From the NCBI GenBank assembly GCA_030041195.1, contig JASHOI010000219.1, positions 1 through 9,272 of the forward strand: DNA of 9,272 nucleotides, read 5' to 3'. Source of the stretch: Streptosporangiaceae bacterium. Its GTDB lineage: Bacteria; Actinomycetota; Actinomycetes; Streptosporangiales; Streptosporangiaceae. The notes under the pieces were generated by a model that was not told the origin of the DNA, did not search any database, and worked only from the letters and a program-made list of their open reading frames with translations. The translations under genes were made by a program, and so were the position numbers. This document shows positions 1,106-3,971 of the stretch, piece by piece; position 1 is the stretch's first letter; every line of letters begins with the position of its first letter.

Positions 1106-1702
1106 GTGGATCAGGAAACGGACGCGGAATTGCTCGGTCGCCTGCGCGCGGGCGACGAGCGGGCGTTCGTGACCCTGGTCCGCCGCCACCATGCCGTCAT
1201 GCTCCGCCTGGCTGCCGGGTATGTCCCGAGCATGGCCGTGGCCGAGGAGGTCGTCCAGGACACGTGGCTGGGCGTGCTGCGCGGCATCGGCGGGTTCGAG
1301 GGGCGTTCCTCGGTCACCACCTGGCTGTTCCGGATCCTGGTGAACCGGGCCCGGACGGCCGGGGCGCGGGAACGCCGCAGCGTCGCGATCGGCGACTCGG
1401 TTCCGGCCGTCGACCAGTCGCGGTTCGACGCCACCGGTCACTGGGCGGCCCCGCCCGGGTCCTGGGTCGAGGAGGCCGAGAACCGGGTCGACGCGGCTAA
1501 GCTGGCCGGCCGGCTGCGCTCGGCCGTCGACGAACTGCCGGCGCGGCAGCGGGAGGTCGTCCTGCTGCGGGACGTCGAGGGCCTGTCCAGCGAGGAGGTG
1601 TGCGGCGTGCTGGAGATCAGCGAGGGCAACCAGCGGGTGCTGCTGCACCGGGGCCGGAGCAGGCTGCGCCAGGTGCTCGAGACCGAGTTCGGGAGGGCGT
1701 GA
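1106..1702 (+). CDS. ECF (group 4) RNA polymerase sigma factor
   Basis: 198 aa, normal size for an ECF sigma factor, which directs RNA polymerase to a small stress or envelope regulon. Region 2 spans about residues 8-90, with the -10 recognition helix around EEVVQDTWLGVLRGI (47-61) and FEGRSSVTTWLFRILVNRAR (64-83). A variable linker of about 45 residues follows. Region 4 is about 135-193: DELPARQREVVLLRDVEGLS, then the helix-turn-helix around EEVCGVLEISEGNQRVLLHRGRSRLR. The start GTG at 1106 is chosen because a leaderless -10 lies 7 nt upstream and no earlier start fits the family length. The next gene begins across the stop codon behind a GGGAGG, so the two are probably one transcript. The regulon cannot be told from this window; the ECF subgroup is unassigned. 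Confidence 0.93.
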   Translation: MDQETDAELLGRLRAGDERAFVTLVRRHHAVMLRLAAGYVPSMAVAEEVVQDTWLGVLRGIGGFEGRSSVTTWLFRILVNRARTAGARERRSVAIGDSVPAVDQSRFDATGHWAAPPGSWVEEAENRVDAAKLAGRLRSAVDELPARQREVVLLRDVEGLSSEEVCGVLEISEGNQRVLLHRGRSRLRQVLETEFGRA

Positions 1703-1704
1703 GC

Positions 1705-1989
1705 ATGCCCCCGAGACTTCGCCTCCCGCTGCGCAGCCGCCGCGAAATCGTGTGCCGGCAGGCGGTCGAACTGGTCACCGACTACCTCGAGGGCGCGCTG
1801 TCCCGGGCGGACCGCCGCAGGTTCGAGGCGCACCTGGCGGGCTGCCCGCACTGCACCGAGTACCTTGCCCAGATGCGCGCGACCATCGAGCTGACCGGCG
1901 GCCTCGCCGCGGATGACCTGACCCCGCAAATGCAGGACGAGTTCATCGCGCTGTACCGGGAGTGGCGCGCCGGCGGGGACGGCGCGTGA
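1705..1989 (+). CDS. Small zinc-finger (ZAS/zf-HC2) anti-sigma-like protein
   Basis: 94 aa. Carries C17 and then H43-x3-C47-x2-C50 (HLAGCPHC), the zinc-binding signature of ZAS anti-sigma factors, in the usual setting 'V.DYLEGALS..DRRRFEAHLAGCPHC'. It has no transmembrane segment, so it should act in the cytoplasm, most likely by binding the co-encoded ECF sigma factor and possibly responding to redox state through the zinc cluster; that role is inferred from family and position. ATG 1705 is preferred because GGGAGG (1691-1696) lies 8 nt upstream. GTG 1699, which overlaps the sigma stop, is in frame but sits only 2 nt from that motif. Its own stop TGA overlaps the GTG of the acetyltransferase (GTGA). 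Confidence 0.85.
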   Translation: MPPRLRLPLRSRREIVCRQAVELVTDYLEGALSRADRRRFEAHLAGCPHCTEYLAQMRATIELTGGLAADDLTPQMQDEFIALYREWRAGGDGA

Positions 1990-3131: not shown

Positions 3132-3158
3132 CCGGCGCGCTAGCACATGCCGCGCCGG
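3132..3158 (-). terminator. Hairpin directly downstream of the CUA tRNA
   Basis: CCGGCGCG (3132-3139) and CGCGCCGG (3151-3158) form an 8-bp perfect stem around an 11-nt loop, beginning one base past the tRNA discriminator position on the minus strand. It could serve as a terminator or as a 3'-processing boundary for the tRNA precursor. It lacks a U-tract, as is common in actinobacteria. Confidence 0.4.
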
Positions 3159-3229
3159 TGCCCCAGGCGGGAATCGAACCCGCTTCGGCCGCTTTAGAGG
3201 CGGCTGCCCGGCCATCGGGCTCCTGGGGC
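3159..3229 (-). tRNA. tRNA with anticodon CUA (amber-decoding)
   Basis: On the minus strand a complete 71-nt cloverleaf can be drawn. The acceptor is GCCCCAG/CTGGGGC (7 bp), the D stem GCCC/GGGC with a 7-nt loop GATGGCC containing GG, and the anticodon stem GCCGC/GCGGC with loop CTCTAAA. The variable loop is CGAA, and the T arm is GCGGG-TTCGATT-CCCGC. The discriminator is A73 and CCA is not encoded. In the 7-nt loop, T33 is followed by CTA (3197-3195) and AA, so it pairs with UAG. Every stem is fully Watson-Crick, which argues against decay. Oddities are G instead of U at position 8 and a 4-nt variable loop. It lacks tRNA-Pyl hallmarks and has no long arm, which argues against Ser, Leu or bacterial Tyr types. 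The charging enzyme is unknown. No promoter is visible in the 46 nt to the upstream gene, so it is probably cut from the operon transcript. Confidence 0.85.
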
Positions 3230-3275
3230 CGTGCGGGGTGACCGGCGGCGCCTGCCGCTCACCCCATGGTGCCGC

Positions 3276-3581
3276 TCAGGCGGCGTCCGGGTCGTCGATC
3301 CGGTCACGCAACTGGGCGTTCGTGACGCGGGCCCGCGCGGCCCGGTACTCCGAAGCGGTCAGGGACCGGCCGAGCCCGTCGAGGGTCCGCAGCACGAACC
3401 GCTGGGTGACGACCCTGCGGTTCAGCGCGTCGAGGGCGGCTGCCTGACGCCACACCTTGCGCTGCAGCCATCGAGTCGCCGTGGGAAGGTCGCCGTCGAG
3501 CTGGGCTCGGAGCGCGTCCCGTTCCGCGGCGAGCTCGACGAGCTGAGCGCGCAGGTCGGCTGAGCCAGTGGACGTGGTCAT
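3276..3581 (-). CDS. 101-aa coiled-coil protein between PTH2 and the CUA tRNA
   Basis: The family is not recognised. The 101-aa product is predominantly helical: a heptad-like segment ADLRAQLVELAAERDALRAQL (8-28), then an arginine-rich second helix TRWLQRKVWRQAAALDALNRR (36-56), a third helical part to about residue 90 and an acidic tail (DRIDDPDAA). It has no signal peptide, membrane segment or cysteine. The start is well supported: ATG overlaps the PTH2 stop (ATGA), and GGAGGT (3593-3588) lies 6 nt upstream. Translation is therefore probably coupled to that of the amber-containing gene. The stop is TGA, and 46 nt separate it from the tRNA. Position suggests a role with the tRNA or the hydrolase, perhaps as a binding partner; this is inference from context only. 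Confidence 0.75.
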   Translation of the reverse strand: MTTSTGSADLRAQLVELAAERDALRAQLDGDLPTATRWLQRKVWRQAAALDALNRRVVTQRFVLRTLDGLGRSLTASEYRAARARVTNAQLRDRIDDPDAA

Positions 3582-3937
3582 GTTCTCACCTCCTCTCCGC
3601 GCGAGAGGGCGAGCGGGAGGCGGGAGACCAGCCGGGCGGCGGCCGGCTCGAGCGCGGCAGCCGTCAGGGCGCCGCCGAGGTCAGGCTCGTGGAACGTTGC
3701 CACCAGCAGGCCGGCCGCCGCGGCGGCGTCGCATAGCCACCCCAGGGAAAGCTCGTCCGGAGCGGCGAGCACAACCAGCGTGTTCGAGGCGGCATGCCAG
3801 CCAGCCATGACGGCCGGGTGGGCTATGGCGAAATCAAGCGCCGCGTGCGCCGCCTGGCAAGCCTGGACGCCGGGGGCCAGGTCGGCGCGGGTGACCAGAT
3901 ACAGGCGGGGGACCTCAGAACCCTAGCGATGCGGCAT
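3578..3937 (-). CDS. pth2: PTH2-family peptidyl-tRNA hydrolase with in-frame UAG at codon 5
   Basis: Read from ATG 3937 the frame gives MPHR, then TAG (3925-3923), then GSEVPRLYLVTRADL and onward to TGA 3580-3578: 119 codons with UAG as the fifth. The part after UAG matches the PTH2 fold: LYLVTRADLAPG (12-23), VQACQAAHAALDFA (24-37), NTLVVLAAPDELSLGWL (52-68), AAAAGL (72-77) and FHEPDLGGALTAAALEP (82-98). The last block takes the place of the DAGRTQ region of classical members. Such enzymes release peptides from peptidyl-tRNA. Between the UAG and the first conserved strand there is no ATG or GTG. The next ATG (3808, residue 44) would remove the first strand and helix that carry much of the active site. 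A leaderless -10 sits 7 nt before ATG 3937, and a CUA tRNA lies downstream on the same strand. I infer UAG readthrough. The alternative is a non-AUG start at CTG 3904, which has GAGG 8 nt upstream. Confidence 0.75.
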
Positions 3938-3971
3938 GTGGGGCATCTTAGCAGGTTTCGCCGGTTTTCAA
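3938..3971 (-). promoter_or_regulatory. Leaderless promoter of the pth2-coiled-coil-tRNA operon
   Basis: On the minus strand TTGAAA (3971-3966), 15 nt, TAAGAT (3950-3945), 7 nt, then ATG 3937. The -10 fits TANNNT, and its distance to the start codon equals that of the two TAAGCT promoters on the plus strand. The -35 spacing is on the short side. This is the best promoter in the region, and it places transcription initiation at the ATG four codons before the in-frame TAG, making that ATG the likely true start. Confidence 0.65.

Follow-up and report, generated by a model that had tools for sequence, protein, structure and literature searches.

A predicted peptidyl-tRNA hydrolase gene interrupted by UAG is likely switched on by a co-encoded CUA tRNA in some actinobacteria and many phages

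A comparison of a small operon of a Streptosporangiaceae bacterium with its relatives indicates that, in some actinobacteria and many phages, a tRNA with the anticodon CUA likely switches on a gene for a predicted peptidyl-tRNA hydrolase (PTH2) that is interrupted by UAG. We consider it quite probable that the operon is a natural suppressor-tRNA feed-forward gate, in which PTH2 and a second product, orf2, would be made only once charged tRNA from the same transcript is abundant enough to prevail over release factor 1 (RF1). It also appears reasonably probable that this gate is a portable amber-licensed translation module. In such a module, one transcript would carry a non-canonical tRNA(CUA) and a hydrolase closed by UAG, with a feed-forward start and feedback from the hydrolase, and the module would reside on chromosomes of actinobacteria as well as in mycobacteriophages and giant phages, where the tRNA bodies differ.

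Results

Organisation of the operon

The operon lies on the minus strand of the window, i.e. the whole stretch of 9,272 nt that was analysed. A -10-like hexamer, TAAGAT (3945..3950), is located 7 nt upstream of ATG 3937, a spacing that fits a leaderless transcript. The frame opened by this ATG encodes a leader of four codons, ATG CCG CAT CGC (MPHR; 3926..3937), meets an in-frame TAG as codon 5 (3923..3925, with G as the next base), and then stays open up to the TGA at 3580-3578. The first-pass annotation of this DNA had placed a TAG as the fifth codon from ATG 3937, in frame with PTH2, and had stated that neither ATG nor GTG occurs from the TAG to the first strand of the fold. Both statements were confirmed in the window sequence; TTG is absent from this interval too, and CTG is found at codons 7 and 9 past the TAG. 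The layout of amber codon and tRNA described there therefore stands, but the middle gene, orf2 (3581-3276), and the wider spread of the operon had been overlooked.

The coding region past the TAG (3578..3922), which ends in TGA, scored 28.8 bits against the Pfam PTH2 family (PF01981), above the cut-off of 23. The best of five AlphaFold models (pLDDT 86; the remaining four, 69-72) gave a TM score of 0.77 against human Bit1/PTH2 (1q7s), i.e. a PTH2 fold, with its first strand at residues 6-12 counted past the TAG. Across 24 PTH2 rows, the columns of D81 (Asp) and T87 (Thr) are invariant. Since the GK motif of 1q7s was not found in the aligned window PTH2, catalysis is only predicted.

The gene orf2 (3276..3581) overlaps PTH2 through ATGA, encodes a helical protein of 101 aa, and was found in all 24 intact loci described below. 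Its model was all-helical (pLDDT 88), a comparison with PDB structures yielded no match at E ≤ 0.001, and no known family was found for it. In the protein database, 243 relatives of PTH2 and 1032 of orf2 were found. The last element of the operon is a tRNA gene with the anticodon CUA (3157..3229, ARAGORN), slightly wider than the 3159-3229 initially assigned to it; the tRNA has the loop CUCUAAA, no U8, and A73, and was labelled Pyl by ARAGORN. Elsewhere in the window (1106-1989), inspection of the ORFs by eye suggested a gene resembling those for RNA polymerase sigma factors and, after it, a short gene with cysteine codons that looks like one for an anti-sigma factor.

Conservation of the amber leader in actinobacteria

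A profile of 27 PTH2 rows matched at least 15 loci in the species-genome collection and at least one in viral contigs. The set used for comparison consisted of the profile loci without L014 and L015, together with L017, the window, and eight loci recovered by the tRNA search, giving 24 intact loci, 23 of them distinct (L007 and L039 are identical in sequence). L014 is a frameshifted second copy without TAG or tRNA, and L015 carries the leader, is frameshifted, and yielded no tRNA; these two broken copies were set aside from the counts. The 24 loci span Nocardia, Actinomadura, Micromonosporaceae, Streptosporangiaceae, and one viral contig.

All 24 loci have [A/G]TG, three further codons, and TAG, with ATG as the start codon in 18 and GTG in six; the frame continues into PTH2 in 23 loci and into orf2 in one (L032). 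A TANNNT box precedes the start by 6-7 nt in every case, the base after the TAG is G in 22 loci and C in two, and a CUA tRNA adjoins the gene throughout, although the end of the contig cuts the tRNA in L007/L039. A TAG kept in frame at codon 5 in 24 of 24 intact loci is not due to chance. This comparison had been proposed in the first-pass annotation, which asked whether PTH2 homologues beside CUA tRNAs keep the UAG, and all intact loci do.

TGA terminates PTH2 in 23 of 23 genes, and the 21 orf2 stops that were read are TGA or TAA, never TAG. Three Nocardia loci (L006, L012, and L038) contain a second in-frame TAG within orf2 at a position where relatives have CAG, which hints that Gln might be inserted there, or that a mere C-to-T change has occurred. 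In L032 (1057-1422), PTH2 has been lost, the leader, TAG, orf2, and tRNA have been kept, and the amber leader now reads in frame into orf2, a match from a single case that would arise by chance one time in three. Because the leader, UAG, orf2, and tRNA outlasted PTH2 in this one case, it suggests that the gate may be selected for itself.

The tRNA pattern CTCTAAA...GGTTCGANTCC had exactly one match per genome in 13 of 13 hosts, that of the operon itself; in G012, the single match adjoins an intact copy of the operon. Matches to the pattern were obtained in 11 of 300 genomes of the family of Virgisporangium, seven of 148 of the genus Nocardia, and five of 297 of the family of Actinomadura. The tRNA-first search gave ten new loci, eight with the amber leader (one of them, L039, re-finds the sequence of L007); the other two, L034 and L040, are other sequences without PTH2. 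Among 394 genomes drawn from across the class, the PTH2 profile had two matches, the centre G004 and a weak one, and a search of 296 genomes with orf2 matched the centre only. The operon is thus rare and patchy. When the flanks were compared by blastn, matches longer than 150 nt appeared in seven of 276 locus pairs, one pair being the same sequence; this count is a lower bound, several loci having less than 1 kb of upstream flank. A search of plasmids gave no match.

Features of the CUA tRNA

An alignment of 21 tRNAs (20 distinct) was examined. The loop CUCUAAA is invariant in all of them, although eight were found through a pattern demanding this loop. In the stems, 99% of the cells are paired, and seven of 21 pairs change on both sides. 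Four of five covariation measures exceeded all 500 shuffles; the fifth, a count of further pair types, showed no excess (443 of 500 shuffles were as high). The cloverleaf is thus supported by covariation, and the Rfam tRNA model gave the CUA tRNA of G004 a score of 53.9 bits (cut-off, 29). None of the 21 tRNAs has U at position 8 (A, G, or C occurs instead), and position 14 is occupied by G or A; for these reasons the core is non-canonical, and the CUA tRNA could be a poor elongator. When it was compared with 41 Nocardia tRNAs, the nearest were those for Lys, Arg, and Phe, all of them weak matches. The tRNA of the viral locus L016 has a different body, carries T8, and is located upstream of the gene.

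PTH2 and CUA tRNAs in phages and viral contigs

Relatives of PTH2 were present in 221 of 50,697 phage records. An early UAG was found in 12 of the 16 phage loci read (L162-L177): five Bixzunavirus loci with ATG-TAG, three Myrnavirus loci with GTG-TAG, and four giant phages, with the UAG at codon 3 in LR756500, LR756501, and LR756504 and at codon 4 in LR745206. It was not present on the PTH2 genes of RAS14, XacN1, and two Lak phages. In eight of eight mycobacteriophages, a CUA tRNA stands just 3' of PTH2. The 60-nt start region is common to 190 records at 90% identity or more, the TAG itself having been read in the examined loci only. Between them, seven cluster C mycobacteriophage loci (L162, L164, L168, L169, L174, L175, and L177) have two or more dissimilar CUA tRNA bodies together with a constant PTH2 UAG.

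In the four giant phages, the ORFs neighbouring PTH2 are mainly open under the standard code. Two CUA tRNAs occur in LR756501, where codon 37 is a further in-frame TAG. In LR745206, the UAG is present and no CUA tRNA was found among 58 ARAGORN tRNAs in the stretches scanned. For LR756504, ARAGORN gave no CTA tRNA, and one tRNA about 100 kb away was read by eye as CUA (four-base tcta according to ARAGORN). Extending a second giant-phage ORF near PTH2 (L166:3998-4588) to an ATG upstream of it would place a TAG at its fourth codon, which may be chance, as an ATG follows. Both Lak phages have a UUA tRNA ca. 0.6-0.7 kb from the PTH2 match (L172:2239-2311 and L173:2347-2419).

Of 104 PTH2 loci in viral contigs, 80 were examined; they include the contig of L016 (as L338) and, once more, cluster C phages. 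A locus was called gated when a start stood just before the nearest in-frame stop and no ATG came after it. By this rule, 27 loci were gated by TAG, two by TAA, and one by TGA; 43 had an ATG past the stop, and seven were of other kinds. Clustering at 90% reduced the 80 loci to 71 clusters, 25 of them amber. A CUA tRNA occurs within 3 kb in 24 of these 25, the exception (L314) being near a contig end; among the 46 non-amber clusters, 20 have a CUA tRNA nearby and three have UUA only. The partnership of PTH2 with CUA tRNAs therefore extends beyond the gate, and together with the 43 loci having an ATG past the stop, these 20 clusters mean that PTH2 does not always depend on the gate. The pairing of the same tRNA with an ordinary start, which the first-pass annotation had named as evidence against its reading, is absent from the 24 intact loci, and in phages a CUA tRNA does lie near non-amber PTH2 genes. 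A search for orf2 in phage records and viral contigs gave no match; nevertheless, the viral locus L016 holds a relative with 47% identity.

A scan of viral contigs with the tRNA pattern was also carried out. Among the 120 stretches listed, 91 had a CUA tRNA by ARAGORN, and 25 of these had a PTH2 match at E < 1e-4, as did four of the other 29 listed stretches; a few of the 25 matches were weak or as distant as 6 kb. The 29 listed loci bearing PTH2 comprised 15 gated by TAG, none by TAA or TGA, 11 with an ATG past the stop, and three others. This set and the one found through PTH2 partly overlap. The base after the UAG was a purine in 25 of 27 gated loci of the PTH2-first set and in 15 of 15 among those listed in the tRNA-first set, which fits a leaky context; a U at position +4 is reported to lower readthrough in the accessible part of PMC5289835.

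In a tree of 100 rows and 103 columns, many forks of which are open, the amber state requires at least 12 changes, three of them forced by well-supported branches. Our recoding score is unreliable in GC-rich tRNA arrays and flags the loci of cluster C mycobacteriophages; for this reason, only L321, L352, and L365 are named as possibly recoded. Ahead of the viral PTH2 frame in L327, L334, L339 (just before 3001), L358, L363, and L376, a tRNA gene was observed whose anticodon loop reads approximately TAATGA (TGATGA in L336). The CCA encoded in L327 and L334 leads directly into the PTH2 core, and no start codon stands between them. These tRNAs may gate PTH2 by another route.

Discussion

Proposed mechanism

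The first-pass annotation held that production of the hydrolase requires the CUA tRNA, and the comparison strongly supports this view through the conserved UAG, the covarying tRNA, the recovery of the operon from the tRNA alone, and the phages. Based on these sequence comparisons, we propose that the operon works as described below. The leaderless transcript would start at the AUG, and the first ribosomes would stop at the UAG and release the tetrapeptide leader. The tRNA would be cut from the 3' end of the transcript and charged by a host synthetase, and the charged tRNA(CUA) would then permit readthrough of the UAG and production of PTH2 and the coupled orf2. Weak or brief transcription would yield the four-residue leader peptide only, while sustained transcription would yield the tRNA and the enzyme. 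A predicted peptidyl-tRNA hydrolase as the product behind the gate would limit the effect of the suppressor tRNA. By cutting peptidyl-tRNA that arises from the suppressor or from early drop-off, the hydrolase would cap or clean up UAG suppression in a self-limiting loop, which is the most likely role for it, albeit a less certain part of the proposal. The occurrence of the same pair with different tRNA bodies in phages suggests that UAG decoding, and not a particular tRNA, is selected.

Alternative explanations

Translation of PTH2 might instead begin past the UAG, at CTG 3904, at another near-cognate codon, or at the GTG of phages, the leader being a separate mini-ORF. This is an unlikely reading, although several observations agree with it: the CTG codons 7 and 9 codons past the TAG in the window, the GTG of L001 and the TTG of L041 before the core, and the public annotations of homologues, which begin variously inside or just ahead of the first strand. 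In addition, a GTG directly abuts the TAG in eight of eight mycobacteriophage loci, so a restart is possible there. However, ATG, GTG, and TTG are all absent between the TAG and the core in the remaining 22 of 24 loci, and a simple restart was rejected as a general rule on this ground; five loci (L005, L010, L011, L017, and L037) lack any NTG codon in the stretch checked. A downstream start would also leave the constant TAG, the frame, and the neighbouring CUA tRNA unexplained. The partial conservation of the leader, which has four codons in 24 of 24 loci and reads MPHR or VPHR in ten, could be taken to mean that MPHR is an attenuator mini-gene, in which RF1 or Pth activity is sensed through termination at codon 5 or through drop-off of the tetrapeptidyl-tRNA, with the tRNA serving only to tune the response. 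We regard this as very unlikely, since phage leaders vary both in sequence and in the position of the UAG (codons 2-9), yet the UAG and the CUA tRNA (24 of 25 clusters) stay, and a restart site past the UAG is mostly absent. As for a decayed gene or a sequencing error, a premature stop in a small gene and the degenerate copies L014 and L015 might bring it to mind, but 24 loci from several families keep the same codon and an intact frame behind it; this conservation rules out a pseudogene, and the chance of such an explanation is negligible.

The gate would operate in cells in which UAG retains its meaning as a stop, and a genome-wide reassignment of UAG in the hosts, by way of pyrrolysine or code 15, is extremely improbable. 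It would suit the presence of a CUA tRNA, the Pyl call of ARAGORN, and the recoded appearance of the amber viral loci L321, L352, and L365. Against it, RF1 scored above the cut-off in all ten hosts searched (of 13), and PylS (PylRS) did so in none of 13 genomes, four of which gave weak sub-threshold matches. In 400 kb of G004 (Nocardia), a simple ORF rule predicted 222 genes, of which 43 end in TAG, nine of the 43 having G after the stop; for 142 kb of a Nocardia that lacks the tRNA pattern, the figure is 18 of 72, and the window ORF ending at 2995 terminates in TAG as well. Furthermore, in the two Lak phages read, the ORFs next to PTH2 appear recoded, and PTH2 itself carries no amber leader. 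Since RF1 is present, PylRS is missing above the cut-off, and TAG is still a common stop, UAG appears to be ambiguous rather than reassigned; the first-pass annotation had left room for either, and only the ambiguous codon is retained. Genome-wide reassignment was ruled out by RF1 (ten hosts) and by the TAG stops (one host sampled). The pyrrolysine system (pylT/pylS) does resemble the operon in having a dedicated tRNA(CUA) for in-frame UAG. According to the accessible part of PMC7609411, tRNA-Pyl has a 6-bp anticodon stem, a 3-nt variable arm, and G73, unlike the operon tRNAs, which have a 5-bp anticodon stem, a variable loop of 4-5 nt, and A73 or G73 (A73 in the window); the UAG of the operon, moreover, lies within a short leader. 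The pyrrolysine system was thus ruled out by the shape of the tRNA and by the lack of PylS above the cut-off in the 13 genomes.

Relation to known systems

No account of an amber-gated PTH2 came to light in the literature searched, which did not extend to preprint servers or to most subscription papers. The closest design that we can point to is the synthetic 'leak dampener' of E. coli, in which, as far as the accessible part of the report goes, one input drives a suppressor tRNA and a UAG-interrupted gene (Ho et al., PMC7969014). As in the operon, the gene product appears as the suppressor tRNA accumulates; however, that circuit is engineered, with stop codons designed in, whereas the operon is natural and conserved and would gate a predicted tRNA enzyme. 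The co-occurrence of PTH2 with a 'pyrrolysine' (CTA) tRNA in the tRNA arrays of cluster C mycobacteriophages has been described (PMC5966550), and the accessible part of that account mentions neither the in-frame UAG nor a dependence of PTH2 on the tRNA. The PTH2 of jumbo phages has been interpreted as a ribosome rescue factor in the accessible part of PMC7824862.

Phages using code 15 (crAss-like and Lak phages) share with the operon a suppressor tRNA that reads UAG, and Lak phages contain a PTH2 relative. In recoded phages, UAG is spread across many genes, whereas in the four giant phages the PTH2 neighbours follow mainly the standard code and the UAG is confined to codons 3-4 of PTH2. The gene prfB, which encodes RF2, is autoregulated by an early in-frame UGA through a +1 frameshift and senses the termination machinery. 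It resembles the operon in having an early stop in a translation factor gene; the operon instead keeps the frame and co-encodes a tRNA.

If the gate operates as proposed, stop codons would serve as natural AND-gates keyed by a co-encoded tRNA, and such gating would require neither a new amino acid nor a dedicated synthetase nor genome-wide recoding. The odd annotated starts of these PTH2 genes would be accounted for, and the natural amber tRNAs with their unusual core would be usable in genetic code work. The coexistence of cells and phages with an ambiguous UAG would become testable, and the arrangement would represent a stepping stone from standard to recoded phages.
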